Below are positions 45,308-64,000 of a DNA stretch of 64,000 bases, piece by piece (positions within the stretch are counted from its first letter, which is position 1; each line of letters opens with the position of its first letter). The position numbers and the translations under genes are program-made. The notes beneath the pieces are model-generated. The model was not told the DNA's origin. It made no database searches and worked only from the letters and a program-made list of their open reading frames with translations. Source of the stretch: Brumimicrobium oceani (GTDB lineage Bacteria; Bacteroidota; Bacteroidia; Flavobacteriales_D; Crocinitomicaceae); assembly GCF_003143775.1 (NCBI RefSeq), contig NZ_QFRJ01000004.1:186001-250000 (forward strand), read 5' to 3'.

Positions 45308-45308
45308 G

Positions 45309-48008: not shown

Positions 48009-48066
48009 AATTGGTTGAATTGACTTTAAATATATAAACGCTTTTTAGGTTGAAAGTTATACAAAC

Positions 48067-48100
48067 AAAAAACCCAGCAGATAAATCTGCTGGGTTTTTT
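48067..48100. terminator. Bidirectional terminator between marC and sodA
   Basis: A perfect 16-bp stem, AAAAAACCCAGCAGAT / ATCTGCTGGGTTTTTT, loop AA, T run on both strands. Confidence 0.85.
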
Positions 48101-48118
48101 AATTTTTTTTGGTTTGGT

Positions 48119-48153
48119 TTTGTAGGCTTGCCCTATTAGGGCATGCCTACAAA
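48119..48153. repeat. GTAGGC palindrome
   Basis: Arms TTTGTAGGC-TTGCCCTA and TAGGGCA-TGCCTACAAA with one mismatch; sits just after the terminator and before the sodA stop. The outer arm TGTAGG resembles the GTAGGG family, though the centre differs. Confidence 0.6.
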
Positions 48154-48183
48154 TTCAAAAACCAAAAATCCAAAAAATCAAAA

Positions 48184-48783
48184 TTATTTTGCTGCTGCAA
48201 ACCTCTTATTTACTTCGTCCCAGTTAATAACATTGAAGAATGCATTAATATAGTCTGGTCTTCTGTTTTGGTAATTCAGGTAGTATGCATGCTCCCAAAC
48301 ATCAAGTCCTAAAACAGGAGTTCCTTCACAACCTAATCCCATTAAAGGATTATCTTGGTTTGGAGTAGAACACACTTCTAACTTTCCGTCTTTTACACAA
48401 AGCCATGCCCAACCAGAACCAAATCTTGTTGCTGCAGCTTTAGCAAACTCATCTTTAAATGAATCAAATGAACCAAATGCCGATTCAATTGCTCCTTTGA
48501 TATCACCTGTTGGCTCACCACCTCCGTTTGGAGACATTACCTTCCAGAATAAATCGTGGTTATAGAATCCACCACCGTTATTTCTAACCGCTGGTTTATC
48601 TGTGCAATTTGCTAAAATCTCTTCGATTGACTTTCCTTCAAGATCAGTTCCTTCAATCGCCGCGTTTAAATTATTTGTATATCCTTGATGGTGCTTACCA
48701 TGGTGGATTTCCATTGTTTTCTTGTCAATATGTGGTTCTAATGCATCGTGTGCATACGGTAAATTTGGTAATTCAAATGCCAT
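48184..48783 (-). CDS. sodA: Superoxide dismutase (Fe/Mn family)
   Basis: Dismutates superoxide. Its 199 residues hold the metal ligands in [15 protein letters not shown] (His), [11 protein letters not shown] (His) and [19 protein letters not shown] (Asp, His). The GGG-NH and NQDNPLM pattern resembles Mn-type enzymes, but Fe or cambialistic use cannot be excluded from sequence. No signal peptide, so cytoplasmic. It lies downstream of sufD on the same strand; an own promoter box is at 48819-48826. Confidence 0.94.
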
Positions 48784-48818
48784 TTTGTATGTTTTTTAAG
48801 TTAATAAATCTGTTTATC

Positions 48819-48826
48819 CAAATATA
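48819..48826 (-). promoter_or_regulatory. -7 box for sodA
   Basis: The minus strand reads TATATTTG, matching TAnnTTTG, 36 bases before the ATG; a TTG on that strand lies about 21 bases further upstream. Confidence 0.55.
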
Positions 48827-48912
48827 AAGAATTAAAGGTGATATGACCAATCTTTACATCCAAAAAAGCTTAAAATTCTAACAAAACCAGTAGTTACTAG
48901 TGATGCGTGAAA

Positions 48913-50169
48913 TTAAAACTTCCAACCAAAATCATTTAAGAAAAGTTCGTCAATATCTGCTCTTAAAGCTTCATTTTCAACCTTATCTAATATATCCCCA
49001 ATAAAACCAGCTACCAGCAATTGTTTCGCACTTGCTGCCGAAATTCCTCGAGATCTTAAATAGTAAATGGCTTCTTGATCTAACTCTCCAATTGTTGAAC
49101 CATGCGAACAACGAACATCATCTGCATATATTTCTAATTCTGGTTTAGAATTTACACTTGCTGTTTTAGAAAGCAAAATGTTTTTATTCGATTGGTAAGC
49201 TGCGATTTTCTGAGCATCTTGTCGAACAATAACTTTTCCGTTGAATACACCAACAGATTTACCATCCATAACACCTTTATATGATTCACTTGATGTACAG
49301 TTCGAATACAACTGATCAATAAGCGTATGGTTATCCATATGTTGGTTTTCTGTACCCAGATAAGCACCATTCATTTCAGTATGACAATTCTCACCTTCCA
49401 CAATTACATCCAGTCCATTTCTCGTTAATTGTGCACCTGTTGTAATCGTATTGATTAAGAAATTACTGGATTCATCCTGAACAAACAGCTCATTTGAAAT
49501 ATGAAGAACATCTTTTGCTTCAGTTTGCAATTTATTAATTGTTAGACTTGCATTTGATTCAACGTGACCTTCCAACACAACATTTGTAAAACTATTTGCT
49601 GAGTTTTTTGAATGAAAAGTCGCTATAACTTCAGACTTCGACCCGTTTTCTGCAAGGACAAAGTGGCGCGCATTTGCAATTACTTCTTCTCCTTCCAAAA
49701 CATGTATCATGTGAATCGGGTGATTTGCCTTTTTATTCTTTTTAATCTGAATAAAAACACCACCTGTTTGGTAGGCTTTGTTGATTAAAGAAAAAACATT
49801 TTCTTCAGTTCCATCCACTAAATCAGAATAATACTCTTCATCTAATTCATCAATCTTTTGAACTGAAACAGCGTCATCATCCAAAATAGTTGATAAGGAT
49901 TCGTCATAATATCCATTAACAAAAACCAATTGGTGTGCATTCAAATCTGCAATCGCGTACTCCTCTATATTGGTTGAAGCTTGTGTTTGTTTATATTTTC
50001 TTTTCACGTACTTAGCCACACGTGTATATTTCCACTCTTCTACCCTTGTCGTTGGGAAATCCATCCCAGTTAAAGCGTCCAAAGCCTGCTTTCTGACTTT
50101 AGAAATCGTTTCCGGTTTCTTAAAATCCGAGACAAACTCGAGTACTTTATTATCCAAAACTAATTCCAT
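48913..50169 (-). CDS. sufD: Fe-S cluster assembly protein SufD
   Basis: Part of the SufBC2D scaffold. The 418 residues have the SufBD beta-helix signature: HLVFVNGYYDESLS-like N-terminal strands, GAYLGTENQHMDNHTL, and the C-terminal DVRCSHGSTIGELDQEAIYYLRSRG. It starts 2 bases after sufC. It is followed by sodA, not by sufS, which usually comes next in Bacteroidota. Confidence 0.94.
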   Translation of the reverse strand: MELVLDNKVLEFVSDFKKPETISKVRKQALDALTGMDFPTTRVEEWKYTRVAKYVKRKYKQTQASTNIEEYAIADLNAHQLVFVNGYYDESLSTILDDDAVSVQKIDELDEEYYSDLVDGTEENVFSLINKAYQTGGVFIQIKKNKKANHPIHMIHVLEGEEVIANARHFVLAENGSKSEVIATFHSKNSANSFTNVVLEGHVESNASLTINKLQTEAKDVLHISNELFVQDESSNFLINTITTGAQLTRNGLDVIVEGENCHTEMNGAYLGTENQHMDNHTLIDQLYSNCTSSESYKGVMDGKSVGVFNGKVIVRQDAQKIAAYQSNKNILLSKTASVNSKPELEIYADDVRCSHGSTIGELDQEAIYYLRSRGISAASAKQLLVAGFIGDILDKVENEALRADIDELFLNDFGWKF

Positions 50170-50171
50170 AT

Positions 50172-50927
50172 TTATTGCGCAATTTCTTCATTAATCCAAT
50201 CATAACCTTTTTCTTCCAATTCTAAGGCTAACTCTTTAGTTCCTGTTTTGATGATTTTTCCATCATTTAAAACATGAACAAAGTCTGGTTGGATATATTC
50301 TAGTAAACGTTGGTAGTGTGTAATCAAGATGATAGAGCGCCCTTCTGAACGCAATTTATTAACACCTTCCGAAACAATACGTAAAGCATCGATATCTAAA
50401 CCAGAATCTGTTTCATCTAGAATTGCCAATTTCGGTTCTAACATTGCCATTTGGAAAATTTCATTTCTCTTTTTTTCCCCACCAGAGAAACCAACATTCA
50501 CTGCTCTACTTGCTAATTTGCTATCCAACTCCACGAGATTCGAAGCTGTTTTTACTTTCGCTAAGAAATCTTTAGCAGACATTTTATCTTCTTTTCGGTA
50601 TTCGCGAATTTCATTAATCGCAGTACGCAAGAAGTTAATATTCGAAACACCTGGAATTTCTACAGGATATTGAAATGCCAAAAACAATCCTTCTTTTGCT
50701 CTGTCTTCCGCCTCAAGATCTAGTAGATCCACTCCGTCAAAGTCTACAGAACCACCCGTTACTTCATAACCATCTTTCCCTGCCAAAACAGAAGCCAAAG
50801 TTGATTTCCCAGAACCGTTAGGTCCCATAATTGCGTGAACTTCACCCGCTTTAACCCCCAAGTTTAGCCCTTTAAGTATTTCATGTCCTTCTTCAACTGA
50901 AGCGTGAAGATTTTTTATTGTTAACAT
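50172..50927 (-). CDS. sufC: SufC, ABC-type ATPase
   Basis: Soluble ATPase of the SufBCD scaffold, 251 residues. Walker A GPNGSGKSTL near residue 36, signature FSGGEKKRNEI, Walker B LAILDETDSGLD, then the H-loop ILITHYQRLL. The ATG is 40 bases after sufB. Confidence 0.96.
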   Translation of the reverse strand: MLTIKNLHASVEEGHEILKGLNLGVKAGEVHAIMGPNGSGKSTLASVLAGKDGYEVTGGSVDFDGVDLLDLEAEDRAKEGLFLAFQYPVEIPGVSNINFLRTAINEIREYRKEDKMSAKDFLAKVKTASNLVELDSKLASRAVNVGFSGGEKKRNEIFQMAMLEPKLAILDETDSGLDIDALRIVSEGVNKLRSEGRSIILITHYQRLLEYIQPDFVHVLNDGKIIKTGTKELALELEEKGYDWINEEIAQ

Positions 50928-50967
50928 ATGCTGTAATTTTCTTTATTAAACGTTTTTATGAATTGAA

Positions 50968-52419
50968 TTATCCTACGGAATTTTCTAGTGAAATTTCCAA
51001 TAGTTTTTGTGCTTCCACTGCAAATTCCATTGGCATGTGATTCAATACCTCTTTACAGTATCCGTTCACAATAAGTCCAATGGCTTTTTCAGAATCGATA
51101 CCCCTTTGTTGACAATAGAAAATTTGATCTTCGCCAATTTTTGAAGTTGTTGCTTCATGCTCTACCCTTGCTGAACTGTTTTTGCATTCGATATAAGGGA
51201 AGGTATGCGCTCCTGAACGGTCAGACAGCAACAAGGAATCACACTCTGATCTGTTTCTTGCATTTTCTGCACCTGCATGTATTTGCACTAAACCTCTGTA
51301 GGTGTTTTGAGACTCACCCGCAGAAATTCCTTTTGAAATAATGGTACTGCTTGTATTTTTCCCAAGGTGAACCATCTTAGATCCTGTATCTGCTTGCTGG
51401 AAATTATTGGTAACTGCAACAGAATAAAATTCACCAATAGAATTATCTCCTTTTAAAACACATGATGGATATTTCCAAGTAACTGCCGAACCTGTCTCTA
51501 CTTGTGTCCATGAAATTTTAGCATTTCTTTCACAAAGTCCTCGTTTTGTTACGAAATTAAAAACTCCTCCTACCCCGTCTTTATTTCCTGGGTACCAGTT
51601 TTGCACTGTTGAATATTTAATTTCAGCATCATCTAAAGCAATTAACTCAACCACTGCGGCATGCAACTGGTTTTCATCACGCATAGGAGCAGTACAACCT
51701 TCTAAGTAAGAAACATAAGAACCTTCATCTGCAACAACTAATGTTCTTTCAAACTGACCTGTTCCTCCTTCATTAATTCTAAAATAGGTCGAAAGCTCCA
51801 TAGGGCAACGAACTCCTTTCGGAATGTAGCAGAATGAACCGTCGGTAAACACCGCACTATTCAAGGCTGCATAAAAATTATCTGTATGTGGAACAACAGT
51901 TCCCATATATTTCTTTACTAATTCTGGATGATTTTCTACTGCTTCGGAGAATGAACAGAAAATGATTCCTAATTCCCCCAACTTCTTCTTGAATGAAGTA
52001 GCTACAGATACAGAGTCTACAACAAAATCAACTGCAGTTCCAGTTAAACGTTGTTGTTCCTCCATTGAAATCCCCAATTTTTTCATGGTTTCTTTCATTT
52101 CTGGATCTACATCATCCCAGCTTTCATATTTTTTAGTTTGACCAGGAGCTGAATAATAAGAAATCGCCTGAAAATCTGGCTTCTCGTAATTTACATGTGC
52201 CCAATCTGGCTCCTTCATAGTTGTCCATGCACGATATGCCTGCAACCTTTTTTCAAGTAACCACTCTGGTTCTTCTTTTTTAGATGATATTAAACGAATA
52301 ACATCTTCATCTAATCCCACAGGAATTGTATCTGACTTAAAATCAGATGTAAATCCATACTTATATTCTTGAACTTCTAAATTCCTTGCTAAATCTTCTT
52401 CTGTGTAAGTATTACTCAT
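50968..52419 (-). CDS. sufB: Fe-S cluster assembly protein SufB
   Basis: Scaffold subunit on which clusters form; 483 residues, the normal length. Conserved blocks are YKYGFTSD near the N-terminus, [42 protein letters not shown] with cysteine, [29 protein letters not shown] (quoted in part), and the C-terminal [18 protein letters not shown]. It lies 79 bases after the A-type carrier gene. Confidence 0.96.
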
Positions 52420-52498
52420 CTTTGAATTATTTTATTTTTAAATAGTGTCTAGACGGAAACATCTCAAAATTAATCGTTTTTCTGTTTCCAGCCAGCCT

Positions 52499-52822
52499 CT
52501 AAATAGAGAAACTCTCTCCACAACCACAGGTCCTATCTGCGTTTGGATTAACGAATACAAAACCCTTCCCGTTTAATCCTCCGGAAAAATCTAATGTTGT
52601 ACCTACGAGGTATAAAAAGCTCTTCTTATTAACGACTATCTTCACACCATTGTCCTCAAATGATTTATCATCCTCATGTTCAACGGTATCAAAATTAAGC
52701 TCATACATTAATCCAGAGCAACCACCACCTTGCACTCCAACACGGATGAAGCTATTCGGTTCTCCCGAATCCTCCATCAATCGAATGGCCTGTTTTCTAG
52801 CAGATTCTGTTACTTTTATCAT
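52499..52822 (-). CDS. sufA: A-type Fe-S carrier (SufA/IscA-like)
   Basis: A 107-residue HesB/IscA-type carrier with the three cluster-binding cysteines: GGGCSGLMY (about residue 35) and TCGCGESFSI (about 102 and 104). Starts the sufA-sufB-sufC-sufD operon. A canonical promoter lies at 52881-52910. The SufA versus IscA/ErpA name is by operon context. Confidence 0.92.
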   Translation of the reverse strand: MIKVTESARKQAIRLMEDSGEPNSFIRVGVQGGGCSGLMYELNFDTVEHEDDKSFEDNGVKIVVNKKSFLYLVGTTLDFSGGLNGKGFVFVNPNADRTCGCGESFSI

Positions 52823-52880
52823 AGTTAAAACTTCGTTTACATGTTATTTATATTAAATCTAAATAACCCTCTTTAATGTG

Positions 52881-52910
52881 CAAAAATACCTAATTAATGG
52901 TATTTGCCAA
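52881..52910 (-). promoter_or_regulatory. Promoter of the suf operon
   Basis: On the minus strand TTG (52910-52908), 19-base spacer, TATTTTTG (52888-52881). The spacing is good. No clear IscR- or RpoE-type operator was identified. Confidence 0.65.
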
Positions 52911-52980
52911 ATTAAAAACTAGATTATTTTAATGGATTTTGGAAATGCGACAGAAGTGAGGGAAAAAGAGAAAAGAAAGA

Positions 52981-53110
52981 TTTTAACCACAAAGAGAACG
53001 GAGGCTTCACAAAGTACACCGAGAAAAGGAGAAAAAAAGGGGTTTAACTGCAAATGAAAAGAAGGTTTCGCTAAGCACCCCGTAAAGAGGAAAATGAGAA
53101 GGAGAGGGTG
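52981..53110 (+). repeat. CACAAAG-type repeat, two degenerate copies
   Basis: Copy 1 (52981) TTTTAACCACAAAGAGAACG then GGAGGCTTCACAAAGTACAC; copy 2 (53041) GGTTTAACTGCAAATGAAAA then GAAGGTTTCGCTAAGCACCC, about 60-62 bp apart. Same general motif type (purine-rich with CACA-AAG-ACAC) as the arrays at 17 kb. Confidence 0.6.
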
Positions 53111-53252
53111 AAGTTGAACTAGTAGGGTTAGAAGAAACAAGACCACTCCAAAACACATTAACCATCAATAATCAATAAATAACAATTATCTCCTTATTTA
53201 TAATCTTTCTAAAAAAGAAGACTGTTTTGACTTTTATCTGTAAAACAAACAA

Positions 53253-53260
53253 TATCTTTG
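53253..53260 (+). promoter_or_regulatory. -7 box for the SufT-like gene
   Basis: TATCTTTG, exact consensus, 15 bases before the ATG at 53276. The nearest upstream TTG is 23 bases away. Confidence 0.6.
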
Positions 53261-53275
53261 TAAAAAAATAAAGAA

Positions 53276-53587
53276 ATGAGCAACGTTGCATTAGAAAACT
53301 CGATTATTGATGTAATCAAGACGATTTACGACCCAGAAATCCCTGTAGACGTTTATGAATTAGGACTAATTTATGAAGTAAAAATCAATGGAGACCAGTC
53401 CGTGGATGTTGAAATGACTTTAACTTCACCCAACTGCCCTGTGGCAGAATCTCTTCCGAAAGAAGTAGAAGACAAAATTGCCGCTGTAGACGGAGTAAAA
53501 TCTGCAAAGGTGAATATCGTTTTTGATCCTGCTTGGGACCAAACCATGATGAGCGAAGAAGCGAAATTGGAATTGGGGTTTTTATAA
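53276..53587 (+). CDS. SufT-like Fe-S assembly protein (DUF59/MIP18)
   Basis: A 103-residue protein of the DUF59/MIP18 family: YDPEIPVDVYELGLIYEV, then MTLTSPNCPVAESLP with the conserved cysteine, and VNIVFDPAWDQTMMSEEAK. SufT-type proteins help Fe-S cluster maturation. It lies divergently from the suf operon (454 bases apart), rather than inside it, which is a modest departure from the common order. Convergent with ddl, with a palindrome between. Confidence 0.87.
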   Translation: MSNVALENSIIDVIKTIYDPEIPVDVYELGLIYEVKINGDQSVDVEMTLTSPNCPVAESLPKEVEDKIAAVDGVKSAKVNIVFDPAWDQTMMSEEAKLELGFL

Positions 53588-53606
53588 TGGAAACTTTTAA
53601 TTGGGT

Positions 53607-53634
53607 GTATGGACGATTTGCAAATCGTCCCTAC
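53607..53634. repeat. Palindrome between sufT-like gene and ddl, GTAGGG(A)CG family
   Basis: GGACGATTTGCAAATCGTCC is perfect; outer bases GTAT/CTAC extend it with one mismatch. It lies 20 bases after one stop and 21 before the ddl stop, on two convergent genes. Confidence 0.85.
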
Positions 53635-53654
53635 CATTGCAATTAAAAAACCCA

Positions 53655-54638
53655 TTACACCCCAAACTGTTTTCTTTCGAAAGCATAAATCTCTTTCCAA
53701 AAATCGCCAATTGAAATTTCGGCACATTTAAGCATTTTTGGAACAAGAGATTCCGACGAAAAGCCTGGTGTTGTGTTCACTTCAATAACATAAGGTTTGT
53801 CCTCTACAATCATAAAATCTACCCTAGCTAACGAGCGCATTTGCAGCAATTGATAAATCTCTACTGTGAGGTCTTGAATTTCTTTTGTTAGTTTGTCGCT
53901 AATTCTCGCGGGCGTAATTTCTTGAGACTTGCCAAGATATTTTGCATCATAATCAAAGAAATCAGACTCTGAAACAATTTCTGTACAAGGCAAAGGAACA
54001 ACTCCAGAATCATTACGATAAACACCACATGTAACTTCTGTTCCTTTCAAAAAGGCTTCGCAAACAACGGTATTTCCCTCTGCGAACGCGTCATCTATTG
54101 CTTTTTGTAAATCTTCGTGAGCATACACTTTCGATATTCCATAACTCGATCCTGAATCTGCTGGTTTCACGAATAAGGGATAGCCCAATCGTTCACCAAT
54201 CTCCTGGGTTGAATAACTTGAGTTTTTCAATAACAATTGAGATTCTGCTACTTTGATATCAAAGCCTCTTAAAAACTGATTACAAAACCATTTATCGAAG
54301 GAAAGTTCGGAGGAAAGCGCGCTACTGTTTAAAAATGGCAGTTTTTTCATCTCAAAATAAGCTTGAAGCTTACCATTTTCTCCAGGATCTCCATGGATAT
54401 AAACATGCGCTAAATCAATTTTAAGTTGCTCTCCATTTTTTAAAGTAAAAGTAAAATCAATAGGTGAAACTTCTGCTGATTCACCTTGATAATCTGCAAA
54501 CCACCCCTCCTCGTTTACACGCACTAAAAATGCGTTGTATTCATCTTTGGGAAGATTCTCCAAAATCATACTTGCACTTTTTATAGATATTTCAAACTCA
54601 GATGAATATCCACCACAAAAGATTCCTACGTTTATCAT
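53655..54638 (-). CDS. ddl: D-alanine--D-alanine ligase
   Basis: Makes the D-Ala-D-Ala dipeptide for peptidoglycan. The 327-residue ATP-grasp enzyme has GIFCGGYSSEFEISIKSA at the N-terminus (His/Glu region of the first domain), KPADSGSSYGISKV near 160 and the Mg-binding EVNTTPGFSSESLVPKM near the end. It stands alone. Confidence 0.9.
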   Translation of the reverse strand: MINVGIFCGGYSSEFEISIKSASMILENLPKDEYNAFLVRVNEEGWFADYQGESAEVSPIDFTFTLKNGEQLKIDLAHVYIHGDPGENGKLQAYFEMKKLPFLNSSALSSELSFDKWFCNQFLRGFDIKVAESQLLLKNSSYSTQEIGERLGYPLFVKPADSGSSYGISKVYAHEDLQKAIDDAFAEGNTVVCEAFLKGTEVTCGVYRNDSGVVPLPCTEIVSESDFFDYDAKYLGKSQEITPARISDKLTKEIQDLTVEIYQLLQMRSLARVDFMIVEDKPYVIEVNTTPGFSSESLVPKMLKCAEISIGDFWKEIYAFERKQFGV

Positions 54639-54863
54639 GCTTTAGTTTTTACGAAGTACGGGAAAATTTTAGCTTGATATAAAAAGAATTCATGGAAGTT
54701 ATCAGCAAAGGGTTTTTGATAATTGTCTTGGTAGAATATTTTGCCGCACATCACGAGTTGCAAACTCGCGACAGCGTCAAAATATTAACTAGCGTTAACG
54801 CTCTCTAAACTGCGCTTTTAGAATTACTATAAATATGTTTTTTTAAAAAAAATAGTGATCGTA

Positions 54864-54884
54864 GATCCACGTCATCCGTGTGCC
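54864..54884 (-). repeat. GCGGATGACG-type fragment
   Basis: On the minus strand GGCACACGGATGACGTGGAT, a fragment of the GCGGATGACGCGG repeat at 23.5 and 29.8 kb. It is within the 283-bp gap 54639-54921, which also has short dyads (CGAGTTGCAAACTCG, TAGCGTTAACGCT) and no gene. Confidence 0.5.
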
Positions 54885-54921
54885 AATACTGCGCACACCA
54901 AGTCAAACAAATTATCAATTA

Positions 54922-55974
54922 CTAATTCCCCTTCTGTCCATGAAAGTGATTCCACCCCTGAGCTTTCAGCTGAATTGCCGCACCTTGCTTATCCACCAAA
55001 TACAATCCTGAATCTTTAGCAGCGTAATGGCCAATTACTGTCATGTGCGGATTTCCTTTGATTTTATCAAAATCTTCTTGTTTGATTGAGAATAGCAATT
55101 CATAATCTTCTCCTCCGTTTAAAACGCAAGTTGTTGGAGAAATATCAAAATCTATGGCCGTTGTAGAAACTGAAGTGTCTATGGGTAATTTTTCGTCATA
55201 TATAACTGCTCCCAAATCAGATTGAGTACATAAATGGAATAATTCAGAGGCTAAACCATCCGAAACATCAATCATTGAAGTAGGTTTAACACCTAATTCA
55301 GCCAAGAATTTAACAATGTCTTTTCTTGCTTCGGGTTTCAATTGTCTTTCTAAAATATAGTCGAAACCATCTAAATCTGGTTGAATATCAGGATTTGCTT
55401 TGTAAACTGATTTTTCGCGTTCTAAAATTTGAAGTCCCATGTACGCAGCGCCTAAATCTCCAGTTACAACGATCAATTCATTTTCTTTCCCACCATTTCT
55501 GTACACAACATCTTCTTTTTTGGCAGTTCCAATAGCGGTAATTGAAATCATTAAACCGGAGACAGAGGAAGTGGTGTCACCGCCTACCAAATCAACTTCG
55601 TATATGTCACAGGCTTTTTTTATTCCTTTATATAATTCTTCTAGCGCCTCTTTTGGAAAACGGCTAGAGGCAGCAATTGTAACAGTGATTTGCTCAGCTG
55701 TTCCGTTCATTGCATAAATATCTGATAGATTGACAACAACGGCTTTATAGCCTAAATGCATCAATGGTGTATACATTAAATTGAAGTGAATACCTTCAAC
55801 CAATGCATCCGTAGAAACGAGCATTACGTTTTCGCCATCTTTTTCGATAACTGCTGCGTCGTCACCTACACCATAAATTGTAGACCCTCTTTTATTTTTA
55901 AAGTCCTTTGTTAACTCTTCAATTAAGCCAAATTCTCCAATGGATTCTAATGATGTTTTTTTCTCTTCGCTCAT
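54922..55974 (-). CDS. thiL: Thiamine-monophosphate kinase
   Basis: Phosphorylates thiamine monophosphate to the diphosphate cofactor. The 350 residues have GDDAAVIEKDG, STDALVEGIHF, VGGDTTSS, IDVSDGLASELFHL and LNGGEDYELLF, all characteristic of the AIR-synthase-like fold. The gene is 4 bases after the polysaccharide deacetylase gene on the strand. sucA in this window needs the cofactor it makes. Confidence 0.94.
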   Translation of the reverse strand: MSEEKKTSLESIGEFGLIEELTKDFKNKRGSTIYGVGDDAAVIEKDGENVMLVSTDALVEGIHFNLMYTPLMHLGYKAVVVNLSDIYAMNGTAEQITVTIAASSRFPKEALEELYKGIKKACDIYEVDLVGGDTTSSVSGLMISITAIGTAKKEDVVYRNGGKENELIVVTGDLGAAYMGLQILEREKSVYKANPDIQPDLDGFDYILERQLKPEARKDIVKFLAELGVKPTSMIDVSDGLASELFHLCTQSDLGAVIYDEKLPIDTSVSTTAIDFDISPTTCVLNGGEDYELLFSIKQEDFDKIKGNPHMTVIGHYAAKDSGLYLVDKQGAAIQLKAQGWNHFHGQKGN

Positions 55975-55978
55975 AATA

Positions 55979-56614
55979 CTATCGTTTCTTTTCTACCAGC
56001 GCAAAATTAAGTCCTTTATCGCGAATTTCTTGAATAATTGCGGGGATAATTTCTTTTATTTTGTGAATTGTTTTCTCGTTTTCGTGAAATACTAAAATAT
56101 CTCTATCTCCCACTTGATTTTTAAGCTTTTGAATAAGTTCATTAGCTGAAATTGAAGAGTCAAAATCATAACTCATCCAACTCCACATCACAAGCTCTCC
56201 TTTTTTCAAGATATATTTCGCCTGTTTTTGAGTTAGATCGCCATAAGGAGGCCGAAACAGATCGGAGTCTACCAAAGCGTTTGACTTTTCGAAATTACGC
56301 TTAAATTCTTGCCAATTGATTTTCTTTCCTGAAACATGATTGTAGCCATGGTGTCCAATTAAATGCCCTTCTTCCAATGCTCTTTTCAATAACTCAGGAT
56401 GCTTTTCGATTTGCCTTCCTTGCCAAAAGAATGTGGCTTTAATGTGATTTGATTTTAAGACGTCTAACAACCAAGGCGTAATTTCGGGATGTGGCCCGTC
56501 GTCGAATGTTAGACACACACTACCCTTCGTCCCAAACCAAATGCGGCGCGGAAAAATCCACGCCACAATTTTTGGTATTTTATATATGTTTTTACTGATT
56601 TCCAGAATCGTCAC
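55979..56614 (-). CDS. Polysaccharide deacetylase (CE4)
   Basis: A carbohydrate esterase 4 domain: LTFDDGPHPEITPWLL (catalytic Asp and first metal ligand), HHGYNHVSG (His-x3-His ligands) and FRPPYGDL; the later motif MSWMSYDFDSS and LVFHENEK also fit. The substrate could be peptidoglycan or a surface glycan. The frame is open from 56659, deep in the upstream gene; the GTG at 56614 gives VTILEISKNIYKIP and overlaps the DUF2723 stop by 23 bases. It is followed by thiL after 4 bases. The start is uncertain. Confidence 0.88.
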   Translation of the reverse strand: MTILEISKNIYKIPKIVAWIFPRRIWFGTKGSVCLTFDDGPHPEITPWLLDVLKSNHIKATFFWQGRQIEKHPELLKRALEEGHLIGHHGYNHVSGKKINWQEFKRNFEKSNALVDSDLFRPPYGDLTQKQAKYILKKGELVMWSWMSYDFDSSISANELIQKLKNQVGDRDILVFHENEKTIHKIKEIIPAIIQEIRDKGLNFALVEKKR

Positions 56615-59600
56615 TTTGGAATCCGTTTTCAGTAAGCAAGGCGTTATAAAGTTTAGCAAACTCTAAAGCCTCTTTTTCCATCGTCCTTACGCGGGTTCTA
56701 CCTCCTCGAATAGCTTCCTTCACTTCTTTATTGCTAAGGTCTTCAACAATTTTACCTACAACATCTCTCGTCAATTTCTGGTCAAGTTCATTTCCGAAAT
56801 TAGCTGCTTCACTATCTGGTGAATTAACCACTACTTGAGCATAAACTTGCAGGAAGTTCATTGCAAAAGAAATGAAATCTTGTTTGCTTTGGTAAGCTAT
56901 TAAAGCATCACTGTGTTGGAAATAATTCATCATTGTTTCCAATTGAGCCATGTATTCAATTGCTAATTTTTCAGCAGATTCGTTCTTTCCAACTTGGAAT
57001 AAAGCTTTAACATAATCTGGAACCGCACCATCAGAGTACACTTGTTCTCCATTAGGCAATCTACGTCCAGTTGCTCGCGGCTCTCCGAAGTCAAACACCT
57101 TGTCAATTGGCAACTTCTCTAGAGAATGATTAATTATGCTTTCAATTCTATCCGCATAGAACTCTGTGTCTTTAAGATTAGAAGAGCTCGAAGCACCAGC
57201 ATTTTTAGACAATTCATAGTCACTAATGTACTTAGAAACCAAATCAATGAAACTATTTCTATACTGACTTGTGTGACGCCTTGTATAGTAATCTACCAGT
57301 ACACCGTCCTCAGCGAGATTAGCGTAATCGTACTTATTAATAATGTTTTCATACATTAGGTCACGCACATAATCATTTGCTGCTTCTCTCTTAATAGGCG
57401 TCAAACCATGTACTTGTCCATAATTATGAACAATTCCTTGTCCGTATAGCGCTTTCGCCACATCGGAACCTCCTGGACTAGAGAAATAAATTCCTCGTTT
57501 CCAATCGAAGTTAGCCAAAATATCCATCATCATCACTTCTTCACGGCTTAATCCTCGCACATCAGAATTGAACATTCCTCCTTTTCTAAAGTTGAAACGC
57601 AATTCGCTCTCTGCTTGATCAACGTACTCCTCTGAAATAATTCCTGCCTCAACTGCATTTTCAACATTAACTGGAAGAACAAAACCTGATGCAGGGAAAT
57701 ATCTAAATGTTCTGCCTCCTGGTTGAGACATCATGTTTGCGTCATCTCTCACAAACTCCATTGCATAATCGAGAGGCAAGAAATCCCAAGATTGCGTCCA
57801 TGTAATTGCAGCGTTTTCCAATTGCTTCAATAAATTTTCATCAGCAGAAATCAAATTATTCCCTACGTCACTAAAAATTTTACGAATAATCAAATCAATT
57901 CTTACATAGTCCTCATAACCCGGATTAGCGATTGGCGCTTCTAATTCTGCCTTTACCTTTTGAAGAATATCAGCTGCCTTTTCATTATTTGGAGTCATGG
58001 CCTGCGTAGACGCCGCCAATCCTCTTCTAATTTGAGAAAGTGCACTTTTAAACAACTGCGGATTTCCTTCAATTTTCTTTTTAATCACCTCATTCGCCTT
58101 TTCTGTAGACAGGTTTCTTTTATAAATTTCGTAATCTAAGAATAGCACATAATCTGTATTTCCTGCACCCATCAAAATTTGATCTTCTCTGAACTTAATA
58201 GGTAAAGGGTCAGATTCATAAGCGCGCATCTTCATTTGGTTAGAGTACCAATCTGTTTGCATTAAAGAGAGGTTAGCCACACGCACATCGGTACGGAGCC
58301 CTTCAACCTCTTGTAAATACCATAATGGGAAAGTATCGTTATCCCCATTCGTATAAACAATAGAATTTGGCGACAACCCAATTAAATAATTATAGGCTAA
58401 AGAACGCGCTGGAGAGCGATTACTCCTATCGTGGCCTTCCCAACCTTGCACACCAAGGAGCATAGGTGCCGAAATTCCTAATAAAATAGCAAATCCTGCT
58501 GCACCTACTTTTGGCGCATTAATTTTTCGGAGCATAGTCATGGCGAGCATTGCTCCACCTCCAATTCCACCAATAATTAATATTGAAGCAGTCGCAGGCA
58601 TTCCTCTGTTCGCACTCATGTCCACGATAAGACATAAGAAAACTAACCCGGCATAACTGATTCCTAACTTTTTGTAATCGGATTTACCAAAAGACCTAAA
58701 TGCTTCATACAGCCCGTACACACCAAGTCCTATCCAAATGGCAAAGGTGTAAAACGAAGCAGCGTAAGCATAATCTCGTTCACGCGGTTCAAATGTTTTT
58801 TGATTCAGATAGATTACAATTGCTAAACCTGTTAACAAGAATAAAATTCCAACTACGATACCATCTTTTGGTGCTTTTAGGAAGTGGAAGAACATTCCAA
58901 TCAAACCTAAAATAAGCGGGATGTAATAAAATTTGGCATTACTTGGATTGTGTTGTGTGTAATAAGGTGCGTTTTCACCTTGCGCTCCCAGCCGGGCTTC
59001 ATCCACTACATTAAATCCGGAGAGCCAGTTTCCTCTAAATTCATCTCCATGTCCTTGAATATCGTTTTGACGTCCAGAGAAATTCCACATAAAATACCTC
59101 CAATACATCCAATCTACTTGGTAATTTACAAAATAGGTAATGTTATTTCCAAAGGTTGGCAATGGTCTTCCGTCTTCCCCTAGTTGACTCGGTGGCACCT
59201 TTCGACTAGGATCGTAACCCGACCAATTTTTATACCCTCGAATTTTCTGTTCACTCATGCGATCAAACATCCTAGGGAACAAGGTATTCTGAGTGTAGAC
59301 AGGGACTTGGTTTTCAATTGCGCCCGCGTTAATCATGAAATACTTTTCATCCATAGTGTAGTTCTGTCCACTATTTTTGATGTAGTTTTCCGCCAGCTCT
59401 TTGTCTTTAAATGAAATAATATCTGTTCCAGAACTAGTTGAAACAACCCATCTTCTGTCATAGTTTGGTGATCTATCCTTAAACTCGCTTTGTTTGGCTG
59501 GTTTAGAATTAAAATACTCACCATAAAGAATAGGCCAAGAACCGTATTGCTCACGCTTTAGGAATGCATGAAGAGTTACTAAATTTTCTGGATTGTTTTC

Positions 59601-60584
59601 ATCCAAGGGTGGGTTTGCATTGGATCGAATGACAATCGTTGCAAAAGATCCATATCCAATAAAGAGCATAATTAAACCAAGGATGACTGTATTCCCTAAC
59701 TTGTATCCTTTGTTTCTGGTGAAATACAATCCACCCACTAAGATTCCGACTAAAAGAATAAAAAAGAATGCCGCGCCCACTCCAAAAGGAAGTCCGAGAG
59801 AATTCACAAAGAAAATCTCCATTTTAGACGCCAATGCAATAGTTCCTGGAATTACACCATTTTGTATAAAACCAAGGGCTAAAACTCCTGCTATACCCGT
59901 AATTAAGAAAGTCTTAAGGTTACTTTTAGGGTACAACTGATGCGATATAACGTAGGCAATGGCAGGTAAAACAAGTAAACCTAACAAGTGAACTCCGATT
60001 GCTAATCCGAATAGGAACATGATTAATACCATCCACCTTAAAGGACGAATTTCAGGACTTAACTGCCCACGTTTAATCATTGTCATTTCCTCATCCCACT
60101 TCAACACTGCCCAAAAAATAACCGCAGTAAACAAAGATGACATTGCATACACTTCACCTTCAACCGCTGAAAACCAAAATGATTCGGTAAAAGTGTAAGC
60201 CATTGCTCCAACAAAACCAGAACCTAAAATTGCGATTTTTTGTCCGTTAGACATTTCATCACCATCCTTTTCAGCGATTTTTTTACCCAACTTAGTAATT
60301 GACCAAAACAAGAAAAGAATAGTTAAAGAACTACTCAGCGCTGACATTCGGTTGATCCATAAAGCTACATCAGCTTCAGATCCTGCAAAAAGAGAAAATA
60401 CTCTCCCGATAAGCATAAAGAAGGGCGCACCCGGTGGGTGACCAACTTCCAACTTATAGGCTGCGGTGATATATTCCCCACAATCCCACAAAGAGGCAGT
60501 ATCTTCAACGGTAATAAAGTAAACGATTGTCGCAATTAAGAATGACAACCATCCAATAGAAATGTCTAACTTTTTATAGTTCAT
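56592..60584 (-). CDS. DUF2723/GT117-like multi-membrane protein
   Basis: A 1330-residue protein whose first roughly 400 residues and then about 540-760 contain many membrane helices. The N-terminal VEDTASLWDCGEYITAAYKL (Asp and Glu in the first loop) and EVGHPPGAPFFMLIGR are typical of the DUF2723 family (GT-C-like, glycosyltransferase family 117), and the C-terminal half is a large soluble region with YVRDLMYENIINKYDY. Members are thought to attach sugars to lipids or proteins at the membrane, but no substrate has been shown here. The polysaccharide deacetylase gene overlaps its end. It is the first gene of the run GT117-deacetylase-thiL. Confidence 0.87.
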   Translation of the reverse strand: MNYKKLDISIGWLSFLIATIVYFITVEDTASLWDCGEYITAAYKLEVGHPPGAPFFMLIGRVFSLFAGSEADVALWINRMSALSSSLTILFLFWSITKLGKKIAEKDGDEMSNGQKIAILGSGFVGAMAYTFTESFWFSAVEGEVYAMSSLFTAVIFWAVLKWDEEMTMIKRGQLSPEIRPLRWMVLIMFLFGLAIGVHLLGLLVLPAIAYVISHQLYPKSNLKTFLITGIAGVLALGFIQNGVIPGTIALASKMEIFFVNSLGLPFGVGAAFFFILLVGILVGGLYFTRNKGYKLGNTVILGLIMLFIGYGSFATIVIRSNANPPLDENNPENLVTLHAFLKREQYGSWPILYGEYFNSKPAKQSEFKDRSPNYDRRWVVSTSSGTDIISFKDKELAENYIKNSGQNYTMDEKYFMINAGAIENQVPVYTQNTLFPRMFDRMSEQKIRGYKNWSGYDPSRKVPPSQLGEDGRPLPTFGNNITYFVNYQVDWMYWRYFMWNFSGRQNDIQGHGDEFRGNWLSGFNVVDEARLGAQGENAPYYTQHNPSNAKFYYIPLILGLIGMFFHFLKAPKDGIVVGILFLLTGLAIVIYLNQKTFEPRERDYAYAASFYTFAIWIGLGVYGLYEAFRSFGKSDYKKLGISYAGLVFLCLIVDMSANRGMPATASILIIGGIGGGAMLAMTMLRKINAPKVGAAGFAILLGISAPMLLGVQGWEGHDRSNRSPARSLAYNYLIGLSPNSIVYTNGDNDTFPLWYLQEVEGLRTDVRVANLSLMQTDWYSNQMKMRAYESDPLPIKFREDQILMGAGNTDYVLFLDYEIYKRNLSTEKANEVIKKKIEGNPQLFKSALSQIRRGLAASTQAMTPNNEKAADILQKVKAELEAPIANPGYEDYVRIDLIIRKIFSDVGNNLISADENLLKQLENAAITWTQSWDFLPLDYAMEFVRDDANMMSQPGGRTFRYFPASGFVLPVNVENAVEAGIISEEYVDQAESELRFNFRKGGMFNSDVRGLSREEVMMMDILANFDWKRGIYFSSPGGSDVAKALYGQGIVHNYGQVHGLTPIKREAANDYVRDLMYENIINKYDYANLAEDGVLVDYYTRRHTSQYRNSFIDLVSKYISDYELSKNAGASSSSNLKDTEFYADRIESIINHSLEKLPIDKVFDFGEPRATGRRLPNGEQVYSDGAVPDYVKALFQVGKNESAEKLAIEYMAQLETMMNYFQHSDALIAYQSKQDFISFAMNFLQVYAQVVVNSPDSEAANFGNELDQKLTRDVVGKIVEDLSNKEVKEAIRGGRTRVRTMEKEALEFAKLYNALLTENGFQSDDSGNQ

Positions 60585-60828
60585 AGTGTAAATTTGAATC
60601 GCACGAAGTTAATAATATTCAGTTTGCGAACGAAAATATGCATCTTAAAATTATAAATAGGCAACATTATTTCATTTTAACACAAATAAAACCCGTTAAA
60701 AGTATCTCAATAGGCTATCTCCTCTAAAATCAGTAAAAAAATAGAGCATCTATACTATTGAAAATCAATTCTGAAAAAAATATCAAAAAATTTATCTCAA
60801 AAGTCCTTGTCATTACATAAAAAGTTTA

Positions 60829-60836
60829 TAAATTTG
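60829..60836 (+). promoter_or_regulatory. Promoter of tRNA-Gln
   Basis: TAAATTTG at 60829-60836, with TTG at 60807-60809 (19-base spacer). Confidence 0.65.
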
Positions 60837-60878
60837 CACTCGCAGAAAGCCAAACGGGTTTTCAAATTGTTTAAAAAT

Positions 60879-60951
60879 TGTCCCATGGTGTAATTGGCAA
60901 CACGTCTGTTTTTGGTACAGAAGAGTCTAGGTTCGAGACCTAGTGGGACAA
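60879..60951 (+). tRNA. tRNA-Gln (UUG)
   Basis: Acceptor TGTCCCA/TGGGACA, anticodon stem TCTGT/ACAGA with loop TTTTGGT (anticodon TTG at 60912-60914), T-arm CTAGG-TTCGAGA-CCTAG, discriminator A. No encoded CCA. It is followed by a tyrosine recombinase, the usual arrangement when a tRNA serves as an attachment site. Confidence 0.95.
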
Positions 60952-60953
60952 CT

Positions 60954-60981
60954 AAAAGCCTCTCATTCGAGAGGCTTTTTT
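60954..60981 (+). terminator. Terminator of tRNA-Gln
   Basis: AAAAGCCTCTC-attc-GAGAGGCTTTT with T run; perfect 11-bp stem. Confidence 0.85.
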
Positions 60982-61063
60982 CATTAAATACCATCAAATA
61001 TAATGGTTTGCGTGATTTAACCATTTCTTAGAACAACATCAAATAACAAAGAAAATTACAACA

Positions 61064-61104
61064 ATTCGGTTAACAAGAGTTTGTTGTAGTTTTGTTAACC
61101 GAAT
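61064..61104. repeat. 13-bp inverted repeat upstream of the recombinase
   Basis: ATTCGGTTAACAA (61064-61076) and TTGTTAACCGAAT (61092-61104) are perfect complements with a 15-base spacer; CGGTTAACAA occurs again at 61181-61190, next to the recombinase ATG. Suitable as a recombinase core site or operator. Confidence 0.8.
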
Positions 61105-61198
61105 GACATCTAGATGCCCATTGTTATTATCTGTATAGACATTTATGTTTTTGAGATTCACTAAAGAAACAAATGTATAACGGTTAACAATTTCTAAG

Positions 61199-62494
61199 AT
61201 GAAAAACTCAAAGGTTAATTCATTCTCTACTTTATTGTGGGGAAACAAAAATCGAATTAATAAATCAGGAGAAATCCCGATTTATTTAAGAATCACTGTA
61301 AACGGCAAAAGAGCCGAAATCTCAACAAATCGTTTTGTTGACAAAAACGCCTGGTTACCTAGTGCTCAAAGAGTAAAAGATAAAGCCAAAGGCGCTATTC
61401 AAATAAATGGTTATCTCGACATGTTGAGAGGAAAGGTTCTTGAAGCTTACAACAAGCTTTTAGCAGCAAATGATGAAATTACTGCTAAAAAAATCAAGTC
61501 TATAGTAGCAGGCAAACCAATACAATCAAAAACAACCCAAAAAACCATCCTGGATGCCTTAGACTACCACAACAAAAAAATGGAAGAAAAGGTCACGATA
61601 GGTCAAACGGCAAAAAAAACATACACGCGCTACGTAATTACTAAGAAGAAAGTCGTAGCCTTTATGAAGCATCAGTATAAAATAAAAGACAAGCCATTGT
61701 CAGAGCTTCGCTTGCGCTTCGTCACCGAGTTTGAGCATTATCTGCTTACGCAAGATAATCTGCATACAAACACAGCACACAAGTACATTAAAAACCTAAA
61801 AACGGTAATGAATATGTCAGTTGGCTTAGACTGGATTTCTTCAAACCCATTTAACAACTTTCGTTGTAGCTACATCGCTCCTAAAAGAGAAGTGCTTACT
61901 CAAGAAGAAGTAGACAGAATTAGATTTAAGAATATTTCTATAAAACGATTAGCTGAGGTTCGTGATGTTTTCAAATTCTGTTGTTACACTGGTTTCGCGT
62001 ATGCAGACATATACGAATTTGAATATGATGCAATCATTAAAGGAATAGATGGTGGATCCTGGCTTAAAACAAATCGTAAAAAAACAGGCGTAAAAGAAAG
62101 TGTTCCTTTACTTCCAGTGGCTCTTGAAATTATACAGAAATATAGAGAACATCCATACTGCTTGAACAAAAATAGATTGCTTCCAGTAAACAGTAATCAA
62201 CGATACAACGGCTATTTGAAAGAAATTGCGGATATATGCAGTATCAATAAAAAAATCACTTCGCATATTGCTCGTCATACCTTTGCCACTAAAATCACAT
62301 TATCCAATGGCGTACCCATTGAAACAGTAAGTTCAATGCTTGGCCATAGTTCTATTCGCACTACTCAAATTTATGCTAAAGTCATTGAGAGCGAAACGAA
62401 AGCAACTAACAATTTTAAATATTCTTGTGTCATTGGAATAATAATAAATAAAGGGAAACAAACTTACGCTTATTGCTCTCTTATTGAAAGATAA
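61199..62494 (+). CDS. Tyrosine recombinase / phage-type integrase
   Basis: A 431-residue site-specific recombinase of the Bacteroidota integrase type. The N-terminal arm domain is NSFSTLLWGNKNRINKSGEIP, the SAM-like core-binding domain about 110-200, and the catalytic part begins near 215. Catalytic residues: TGFAYADIYEF (position of the first Arg, here Ala as in many Bacteroidota members), KKTGVKESVPLL (Lys), HIARHTFATK (His-x-x-Arg), and LGHSSIRTTQIYAKV (His and the nucleophilic Tyr). The 38 residues after that are not the usual family C-terminus and read like low-homology tail. It follows tRNA-Gln and probably acts on an integrated element extending beyond the window. Confidence 0.9.
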   Translation: MKNSKVNSFSTLLWGNKNRINKSGEIPIYLRITVNGKRAEISTNRFVDKNAWLPSAQRVKDKAKGAIQINGYLDMLRGKVLEAYNKLLAANDEITAKKIKSIVAGKPIQSKTTQKTILDALDYHNKKMEEKVTIGQTAKKTYTRYVITKKKVVAFMKHQYKIKDKPLSELRLRFVTEFEHYLLTQDNLHTNTAHKYIKNLKTVMNMSVGLDWISSNPFNNFRCSYIAPKREVLTQEEVDRIRFKNISIKRLAEVRDVFKFCCYTGFAYADIYEFEYDAIIKGIDGGSWLKTNRKKTGVKESVPLLPVALEIIQKYREHPYCLNKNRLLPVNSNQRYNGYLKEIADICSINKKITSHIARHTFATKITLSNGVPIETVSSMLGHSSIRTTQIYAKVIESETKATNNFKYSCVIGIIINKGKQTYAYCSLIER

Positions 62495-62506
62495 AACATC
62501 TTTCAA
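62484..62506 (+). terminator. Hairpin at the recombinase stop codon
   Basis: TTGAAAGAT-aaaac-ATCTTTCAA, a perfect 9-bp stem that contains the TAA stop; AT-rich text follows with a short T run. Confidence 0.45.
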
Positions 62507-62523
62507 TTAAACTTTTCAAATTT

Positions 62524-63252
62524 CTAGTGGGCAAAATAAATAGTAGCACCTATTCTAAATTGAGGAATCAAATAATCTCTAGGCATCTCAAAATGAACAA
62601 CATTTTCATTAGGCTCTGGGACAGGTTCGGCTTCTTTAGGGTACTTTTGAATGTCTGTAAGTTCAATAATATAATCCATCCCTATTTCACCAAAAAGCTT
62701 TATTCCAAGCCTTTCTGTTGCCATAGCTTTTAGAGATATTCTACCTTGAACTCCTGTGACCAAATATTCTCTTTTATTATCAATTGTTATCTCACTTTTA
62801 ACCGGAGGATGAAGATACGACATATTATGTGGAGAGGCATTATTATAGAAGGCCTCATATGTGTTTCCTCTAACCTTCTCGCTTTGTGCTAGGTAGCCCA
62901 GTATTCCTTCAACAGCCCAACTGAAATTTGACGCTCCAATTTGGAACTCTGGTCCAATGGTTAGTCTAGTTTGCAAATCTCGTTGAGTTAAGTTAGATTC
63001 CTCAAAGTAAATCTCTGAGGTTGAGGTTGATTGGTAAAACCTACGGTCCCAAAGACTTTCTCTAATATCCCAACCTTGGGAAAGTCTAAAATTTATCGAG
63101 CGCTTTTCCTTTAGGGCTAATTTATAATTCAAAAACAATCGATGATCTGAATCGGTTGTTAAACCAATTCCTATTTCATTCAAATTTTGAGCCTCACCAC
63201 CCAACGAAATAAACATTCCGATAACTAGAGTAAACAAGCTTAATTTATTCAT
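62524..63252 (-). CDS. Exported protein, outer-membrane barrel-like
   Basis: A 242-residue protein. The frame opens at 63309, but the ATG at 63252 gives a clear signal peptide, MNKLSLFTLVIGMFISLG with cleavage near EAQ. Alternating strands (NFRLSQGWDIRESLWDRRF, YIIELTDIQKYPKEAEPVPE) and the C-terminal RDYLIPQFRIGATIYFAH, with terminal aromatic residue, suggest a beta-barrel. Family not recognised. Convergent with the recombinase. Confidence 0.6.
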   Translation of the reverse strand: MNKLSLFTLVIGMFISLGGEAQNLNEIGIGLTTDSDHRLFLNYKLALKEKRSINFRLSQGWDIRESLWDRRFYQSTSTSEIYFEESNLTQRDLQTRLTIGPEFQIGASNFSWAVEGILGYLAQSEKVRGNTYEAFYNNASPHNMSYLHPPVKSEITIDNKREYLVTGVQGRISLKAMATERLGIKLFGEIGMDYIIELTDIQKYPKEAEPVPEPNENVVHFEMPRDYLIPQFRIGATIYFAH

Positions 63253-63701
63253 GCCTTTTCTTGATTTTTTGATTCTTACCAAGACTTCAACGTTCCAGTC
63301 ACTAAACATATTACATGAGTGCTTACCCTATTTATCTGAAAAACAGATTCTATAACATTCCACTCTGGTAACAAAAGAATACCTCAGAGCTTATATAGAT
63401 TCAACCAATTCTGTTATTCATACGGATATAGGCAATGCATCAATAGAAGTGCTTGATATAATTTATGGTGACACTACATACTAAGAAAAGTAAAAACTGA
63501 TTAAAAACAAAAAAGGGAACAAACGAGCGTTCATTCCCTTTTTAACCTAACCTAAACACCTAAATCGAGACCAATATATAAGTTTTAAATTAAGTGGCAA
63601 AGGAATAATGATATTTGTGTCATGTTAGTCTAAATTGCCTTATTAAAACAGATATATCTGCTAAAACAATTAAATTTCAAGAATCAATCTTTCTATGTTA
63701 G
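63253..63701. other. Gap with a gene remnant and terminator
   Basis: Between the exported protein and the small gene at 63702. It holds an ATG-less frame (63356-63484; VTKEYLRAYIDSTN ... IIYGDTTY) that looks like a gene end, and a terminator at 63510-63543. Nothing else is recognised. Confidence 0.45.
63510..63543. terminator. Bidirectional terminator
   Basis: AAAAAGGGAA ... TTCCCTTTTT, with inner GAAC/GTTC pairing; T/A runs on both sides. Confidence 0.75.
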
Positions 63702-63890
63702 TTAACCATTGGAAACTGAATCGAAAAAACTAAATCCCTCAGAAATCACTCTACTTTTATCTTTGAGCATTAACTCCTTAACTCTCTCAGGTGTTTTTCT
63801 CCATAATTCAGGAGAGATATAAACATTCGTTCCCTGAGAAAGAATGACTTCAGTAATTATTCTAACTTTATCATTAAGGTTGACAAACAT
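63702..63890 (-). CDS. Small hypothetical protein
   Basis: A 62-residue protein, MFVNLNDKVRIITEVILSQG start, basic and helical end, no membrane segment. Family not recognised. It is divergent from the partial gene at 63897, with only 6 bases between the two starts, which is very tight; one of the two may be misassigned. Confidence 0.35.
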   Translation of the reverse strand: MFVNLNDKVRIITEVILSQGTNVYISPELWRKTPERVKELMLKDKSRVISEGFSFFDSVSNG

Positions 63891-63896
63891 TAATTG

Positions 63897-64000
63897 ATGA
63901 GTAATAAGTTTAAAATAGGATACATTATTTTCATATTTACTTTATCAGCTCTTGTTGGCAGTCAGTTTTTTGTGAAAGATAAAATATTGAATGGACTCGA
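63897..64000 (+). CDS. Partial membrane/exported protein, cut by the window edge
   Basis: ATG at 63897 opens a frame to the window end: MSNKFKIGYIIFIFTLSALV, then GSQFFVKDKILNGL. It begins with a basic start and a hydrophobic helix, so it is a membrane anchor or signal peptide. Product unknown because only 34 codons are visible. Confidence 0.45.
   Translation, partial: MSNKFKIGYIIFIFTLSALVGSQFFVKDKILNGL

Follow-up and report, generated by a model that had tools for sequence, protein, structure and literature searches.

A tRNA-Gln island end in Brumimicrobium oceani with putative arm sites that go with the arm-binding domain of its integrase

The stretch of DNA analysed here—64,000 nucleotides of the Brumimicrobium oceani genome, C30:186001-250000 of 35 contigs, hereafter the window—very probably carries the left (attL) end of an island at a tRNA-Gln gene, in which the dyads ahead of the integrase are putative arm sites and the arm-binding domain together with its site array forms an exchangeable cassette. 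The layout, the correlations, the breakpoints, the att repeats, and a pair of empty and occupied sites were observed; binding, repression, the route of exchange, and the loss of mobility are what we infer within this explanation. The element itself is of an ordinary kind. Less ordinary is what it leads to: an arm specificity that would be exchanged as a cassette and would follow a code open to testing.

The left island end

The integration target is a tRNA-Gln gene (ttg; 60879..60952, forward strand), called by ARAGORN and by Rfam (RF00005, 61.9 bits) and present in all 12 syntenic loci that were read. Its 3' end is the attL core CCTAGTGGGACAAC (60939..60952, forward), which is repeated at the far island ends of an uncultured Brumimicrobium (G001), B. 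glaciale (G004), and B. salinarum (G005). Directly 3' of the tRNA lies a terminator-like hairpin (60954..60979, forward), whose arms, AAAAGCCTCTC / GAGAGGCTTTT, are identical after the tRNA on contig C1 of the same genome and in G001. The tyrosine integrase of 431 aa follows (61199..62494, forward); the predicted order of tRNA-Gln and tyrosine recombinase hence stands, with both tRNA calls and an integrase frame that bears Arm-DNA-bind_5, Phage_int_SAM_5, and Phage_integrase—arm-binding, core-binding, and catalytic domains all being present. The arm-binding domain comprises aa 1-109 (61199..61525, forward), with the Pfam Arm-DNA-bind_5 match at aa 17-100, and holds residues 14, 19, and 38. In a five-integrase alignment judged by eye, the K, H-x-x-R, H, and Y that we take to be catalytic are present, e.g., in HIARHTF and GHSSIRTTQIY, and the sequence is TGFAYAD where the first catalytic Arg would normally stand. 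The last ~32 residues are non-native: the tail after ~aa 399 (62396..62494, forward) is unlike those of the four relatives in this alignment, which keep theirs, and similarity to the relatives compared ends at ~62395.

These features suggest an IntCTnDOT-like integrase. The occurrence in Bacteroidota and the three domains (Arm-DNA-bind_5, SAM_5, and Phage_integrase) are shared with the IntCTnDOT subgroup, i.e., the integrases of CTnDOT, NBU1, and SGI1, and the sequence TGFAYAD at the place of the first Arg is a further likeness to the CTnDOT integrase, for which this residue is reported as absent (PMC8138268). Unlike that subgroup, the integrases described here target tRNA 3' ends, occur mostly in one Flavobacteriales family, and go with a very diverse arm motif.

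To the right of the integrase, the window holds a 261-aa frame on the reverse strand (62524..63309)—a probable cargo gene with no Pfam match at 0.001 and no PADLOC match at 0.0001—followed by a piece 89% identical to island DNA of G004 (63500..63856) and by a piece 98.7% identical to island DNA of G001 (63849..64000, forward), which runs beyond the window.

Between the tRNA and the integrase, the 13-bp inverted repeat with a spacer of 15 that had been noticed earlier is exact, with ATTCGGTTAACAA at 61064-61076 and TTGTTAACCGAAT at 61092-61104. None of 500 dinucleotide-preserving shuffles of 61006-61198 reached 13 bp, their longest inverted repeat being 11 bp. A second, weaker inverted pair, TACAACAA / TTGTTGTA, is interleaved with this dyad. 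The left dyad arm contains the putative arm site CGGTTAACAA (61067..61076, forward), which recurs inverted at 61092..61101 (reverse) and a third time at 61181..61190 (forward), 8 bases before the ATG, just where the original prediction had put it; there are only these three exact copies in the whole window. A degenerate direct copy, ATTACAACAA (61055..61064, forward), lies 12 bp upstream of the next copy and is proposed from its sequence, the weaker inverted pair, and the layout of the family. The dyads are best read as putative arm-type sites for the N-terminal arm-binding domain of the integrase.

The third site, just 5' of the start codon, is a candidate for self-regulation. A copy of the own motif (at least 8/9) within 80 bp of the ATG is found in 33 of 61 family loci, compared with a mean of 7.0 and a maximum of 14 for permuted motifs (300 runs). 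The prophage KplE1 has an int promoter that overlaps attL and the arm sites beside a tRNA gene, and repression of its own gene by the integrase IntS was measured (PMC2951348). The layout of promoter, attL, and arm sites at a tRNA is shared, whereas repression is here only inferred; by this analogy, the placement of the third site fits self-repression by the integrase.

Bounds of the island and sites in relatives

The gene left of tRNA-Gln has a match in 57 of the 59 genomes searched, the window genome included, and integrase relatives above 60% identity come from G001, G004, G005, and B. mesophilum (G003). Three of nine same-genus relatives—G001, G004, and G005—carry an integrase and an att-bounded island at tRNA-Gln, the islands being 29.7 kb, 45.6 kb, and 28.7 kb long and each bounded by the exact 14-mer CCTAGTGGGACAAC. 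These are the three of the 12 syntenic loci with an adjoining integrase; none adjoins the tRNA in 8 others (5.7-15 kb read), and the sequence of G011 ends 0.2 kb past the tRNA and cannot be judged in this respect. The relatives do hence not share one identical gene order free of an element, the outcome that was to speak against the original prediction. In G002, one island-type gene lies ~7 kb from tRNA-Gln.

The comparison of relatives also yields the empty site: G003 is empty where G004 is occupied. In G003, a 377-aa gene comes after tRNA-Gln, and its ortholog in G004 stands directly after attR; by reading, a leftover arm array without an integrase is seen at the G003 site. In the window genome, the ortholog of this gene is found on another contig (C34:154556-155677), near a copy of attR with one mismatch, CCTAGTAGGACAAC (C34:156172-156191), which indicates that the island is split between C30 and C34. 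Joined by synteny and not by continuous sequence, the window island is thus read as a C30 and a C34 part, ~33 kb together plus a gap. With the att-bounded islands of the relatives and this ortholog and attR on C34, the predicted element at tRNA-Gln—extending right—is supported. Its C34 part carries a type I restriction system, the candidate defence protein PDC-M49A, and, by reading, metal-efflux genes. The match to PDC-M49A (L079 3575-5599, C34), beside the type I restriction system, has a PADLOC E of 9e-297.

One island sequence, consisting of a 160-aa gene and its neighbours, recurs at the ends of C21, C30, C33, and C34 (L063-L069). Since it is repeated at several contig ends, it is probably present in multiple copies in the genome and breaks the assembly. 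The genome also holds another island with an integrase of this family, which is integrated at a tRNA-Lys (L008-L010, C1:58450-102684) and measures 44 kb by its own att repeat. In G008 and G011 (L056, L061), a nearly identical 47-bp copy of the 3' end of tRNA-Gln plus the following 30 bp lies no more than ~180 bp from the tRNA with no island in between, and is perhaps the remnant of a former element.

The search further right that had been proposed does find an exact copy of tRNA-Gln 26 kb away; this copy, though, is part of a duplication, which takes in both the tRNA and the integrase, and is not an attR. The window contains the first copy of a perfect tandem duplication of 26,329 bp (37809..64000, ending at 64140 outside the window), whose second copy, with a period of 26,329 bp and a 3-bp junction overlap, lies at C30:250138-276469, 21 bp before the contig ends. 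By reading, it contains core genes—suf genes, sodA, coaX, and others—and its borders lie within reading frames. With frames cut at its borders, it represents either a tandem duplication of the chromosome or an error of assembly, and not a mobile unit; which of these two it is, real or an artefact of assembly, may go either way, and the second tRNA-Gln copy was rejected as attR. The exact 14-mer CCTAGTGGGACAAC occurs in the window genome in these two tRNA copies only.

Proposed exchange of the arm domain with its sites

Searched with the five-integrase alignment, 74 of 240 genomes of the window's family match at 1e-60, as do 0 of 8 and 4 of 39 genomes of two other families of the order; over the whole order, 74 of 399 genomes match at 1e-80, 67 of which belong to the window's own family. 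Seventy loci were read, 30 as returned by the search and 40 taken by place. A tRNA gene lies within 700 bp upstream in 50 of the 70, and the one closest to the integrase is a tRNA for Lys, Gln, Asp, Arg, Phe, Met, or Leu. Two direct copies spaced by 12 bp with an inverted copy behind them recur in 56 of 69 loci, equalled by 1/40 shuffles or fewer (0/40 for 49 loci), G119 with its 27 bp of upstream DNA being excluded from this count and C1 not being among the 56 (4/40 shuffles). For the window, the array score chose the neighbouring weaker set (0/40 shuffles), the direct copy beside CGGTTAACAA being degenerate. The spacing of 12 bp is kept across the family while the letters of the motif vary widely: the 61 motifs assigned amount to 32 distinct 9-mers. 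G3 and C8 are constant save for one row, a constancy that is partly due to construction, as the 61 motifs were brought into register by eye. An automatic extraction that masked position 7, and that was built on the same 61 motifs, recovered 61 of 61. No motif was assigned for 9 of the 70 loci (G079, G107, G137a, G248, G260a, G235, G014, G120c, and G119), of which G137a has a full-score array outside the G3/C8 register.

Across these loci, the sites go with the arm-binding domain, which supports the first proposal that the recombinase has its own dyad sites. Motif distance correlates with arm-domain distance (Mantel 0.45; partial, given the catalytic domain, 0.42; 0/2000 permutations each), and no correlation with catalytic distance is left given the arm domain (-0.04, 1529/2000 permutations). 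This outcome holds after thinning to 51 loci (0.398 and -0.045). Single pairs make the same point: G102a/G097 share 0.97 in the catalytic domain and 0.30 in the arm domain and differ in 7/10 motif letters, and G000/G004—the integrases of the window and of B. glaciale—share 0.95 and 0.24 and differ in 4 motif letters. Three further pairs, G027c/G021, G021/G105, and G007/G021, lie like G102a/G097 at 0.95-0.97 in the catalytic and 0.25-0.37 in the arm domain. The reverse, a like arm domain and the same motif on a more distant catalytic domain, is seen for G007/G027a (0.90 vs 0.81) and G017b/G059 (0.94 vs 0.76). In the swap pairs that were aligned, homology breaks at two recurrent positions: it stops upstream at ~-180 to -290 and resumes at ~+280 to +340. 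Judged from these alignments, arm domain and adjoining sites are exchanged as one block between islands.

The window integrase is itself such a chimera. It is 72% identical to that of G004 overall, with 95% in the core and catalytic part and 24% in the arm domain, and homology to G004 in the DNA is missing between -195 and +334 relative to the ATG. The exchanged module (61005..61532, forward) comprises the array of arm sites, the leader of int, and the arm-binding domain, and has its homologue in the tRNA-Lys island on C1 and not in the tRNA-Gln islands: C1:102257-102636 matches the exchanged stretch, and C1 can be aligned from -272 to +1189 at 72%. The arm arrays differ in type, with CGGTTAACAA for the window integrase and GGTGACCTA for that of B. 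glaciale.

The far island ends were read in the downstream DNA of 26 elements, 18 of which have a usable attR (for G034, the first of three candidate repeats was taken). In 13 of these 18, the 160 bp ahead of attR hold a site that agrees with the left motif of the same element in at least 8/9 letters, and in 10 of 18 no other motif scores as well as the own one, some motifs being alike. These sites usually come as two copies spaced by 12 bp, which begin 74-104 bp ahead of the core. Summed over the elements, the match is 143, compared with a mean of 115 and a maximum of 131 for permuted motifs (0/10000). Five far ends stay below 8/9 (G102c, G034, G146, C1, and G000); that of G003 scored 8/9, though its pair reads GTGGTCTATGTGGTGGTCAT, another type. 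The far ends of G001 and G005 are 95% identical until ~-107 and show no homology from there to the core, and between those of G000 and G004, homology extends across the arm pair. From these comparisons it follows that complete swaps alter both ends, and that the window shows a left-only swap.

Read from its sequence, the window island has a left cassette of TTAACAA type and a far end still of GGTGACC type. Its far end reads GTGCCCTATGTGGTGACCTG, the type of G004, and matches the own motif at 6/9. The C1 island has the TTAACAA arm module as in the window and its far end is mismatched, too, with GTGGTCTATGTGGTGGTCAT, the type of G002, and 7/9. With a left-only swap and the integrase tail lost, the window element would probably be immobile or poorly mobile, i.e., stranded. 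As an alternative, the CGGTTAACAA arm domain may have two specificities: the window and C1 islands are the only CGGTTAACAA elements with a far end read, and both are mismatched. In B. mesophilum, a same-family integrase whose frame diverges before the catalytic Tyr (L101 4983-6242) is probably another stranded copy.

At the level of single positions, residue 19 and base 7 form the top residue–base pair of those tested, with a normalised mutual information of 0.50 and the next pair at 0.34. K goes with C in 30 of 30 loci and R with A (21) or G (7) in 28 of 30, making 58 of 61 in agreement with three exceptions (R-C 1, R-T 1, and Q-G 1). Base 2 goes with residues 14 and 38. Among the top 100 pairs, 49 are arm-domain pairs, compared with 26% among the pairs tested; 18 of the top 30, however, involve columns of the core domain, in 17 cases paired with base 10, so that shared ancestry adds noise. 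In a validation sample of 25 loci—2 without upstream DNA, 7 below the shuffled maximum, and 16 counted—13 of the 16 new loci agree with base 7 masked (R-A 6/6, K-C 7/10); the three misses form one subgroup, and among the six R loci are four whose arm domains are almost the same. Of 11 independent pairs on the catalytic tree, 10 agree, none contradicts, and one is a tie (p 0.002); the arm-domain tree gives 4 supported independent pairs, of which 3 agree, none contradicts, and 1 is a tie, which is not significant. The 9-mers change 36 times on the arm-domain tree versus 42 times on the catalytic tree, a modest gap. The predicted structure (pTM 0.37, mean pLDDT 69.5) is good in parts only, the arm domain included, and displays strands at 9-15, 25-34, and 37-48 and a helix at 66-89. 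This puts residue 19 into the loop connecting the first two strands, residue 14 into the first strand, and residue 38 into the third. The 50 matches listed from a structure search are tyrosine recombinases with TM-scores up to 0.44, uninformative on the arm domain, and all 8 matches from a sequence search of solved structures cover the C-terminal part. From this covariation, one amino acid (residue 19) appears to set one letter of the site (base 7).

Competing explanations and known systems

Might the dyads instead be operators of a separate regulator or excision factor—such as the HTH_17 protein of the islands—and go unread by the integrase? Dyads commonly go with dimeric regulators, these are located in the int leader, and an HTH_17/MerR-like protein is encoded in the G001 island and, judging by the frames, in those of G004 and G005. 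We regard this as rather improbable, as the motif tracks the arm domain of the integrase and not the catalytic one, a single base tracks residue 19 of the arm domain, and the motif stands at the far end in 13 of 18 elements. The covariation could also reflect nothing but shared ancestry: arm domain and leader are neighbours exchanged as one stretch, so that any leader would track the domain, and the low power of the tests on the arm-domain tree and the many core-domain columns that score high with base 10 point the same way. However, the match reaches a site ~10 to 50 kb off at the other island end, the 12-bp spacing is constant where the letters are variable, and a single residue predicts a single base, exceptions being few, which leaves this account quite unlikely.

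An ordinary prophage end with a lambda-type attP, and nothing more, would likewise bring arm sites, a tRNA target, and self-regulation, all of which are known from phages (PMC2951348), and an amidase gene is present in the G001 island. It is nevertheless a very slim prospect: 93 pattern matches in IMG/VR gave 0 confirmed, 125 of 126 matches in phage records lie below 60% identity with the best-ranked at 39%, and no virion gene is found among about eleven island proteins scanned, which include an AAA ATPase, the amidase, and a type I restriction system. In plasmid records, all 118 matches lie below 60% identity.

Arm sites help decide the direction and fidelity of integration (cf. PMC8138268). 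In the preferred reading of an island with an exchangeable arm cassette, a tyrosine integrase with an N-terminal arm-binding domain would insert the island at the tRNA-Gln 3' end, and its arm domain would bind the dyad, the weaker partners, and the third copy while the recombination complex assembles; the copy at the start codon probably also allows the integrase to repress its own gene. The cassette of arm domain and array would move between islands, the catalytic part, which has to fit the tRNA core, staying behind, and a complete swap would also change the far-end arm pair. In the excised circle, both arms and the start of int would be contiguous within a few hundred bases, which might offer an easy, one-step route of exchange. 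In the window island, the swap would have reached only the left cassette, which is now a TTAACAA-type module as in the tRNA-Lys island of the same genome. Tentatively, and with some doubt on our side, this can be taken further: arm domain, near array, and far pair might be swapped together in the circle, giving a readable code with many mutually blind types per chassis and tRNA, and half-swaps might strand islands as fixed parts of the genome.

The nearest precedent we found is the prophage pair IntF and IntB-F of Oenococcus oeni, which share a tRNA core and have 21 of their 46 changes in the N-terminal 66 aa; its authors tie these changes to the arm repeats and suggest coevolution (PMC8074189). 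That case concerns a single pair with 92% overall identity, in which one repeat has been lost and the spacing differs (PMC8074189). Here, on the contrary, 32 9-mers are found in 61 loci, both island ends are involved, a residue is linked to a base, and arm domains only 21-37% identical sit on catalytic domains 93-97% identical. The movement of domains also changes specificity in restriction-modification (cf. PMC3983042). In type I S subunits, too, the domain that reads the DNA is replaced while the catalytic partner is conserved; unlike there, the DNA sites have to change with the domain in the present islands. Among the papers searched, mostly from outside subscription journals and judged by titles and abstract openings, none describes such an exchange or a residue–base rule for arm domains, and we found no account of integrases changing arm specificity on such a scale. 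The family offers tens of natural domain–site pairs on near-constant catalytic domains, together with a candidate residue–base rule. If true, this would provide a set of orthogonal integrases that share one tRNA target, and would show in simple terms how islands get stuck.

An avoidance of like arm types within one genome is not supported, with 2 of 19 pairs at no more than one mismatch versus 2.2 expected (permutation P 0.63). In G102 (C1:3411001-3511000, L183-L187), a single tRNA-Lys is followed by three successive islands, which have an integrase and an att core each and three different arm motifs.
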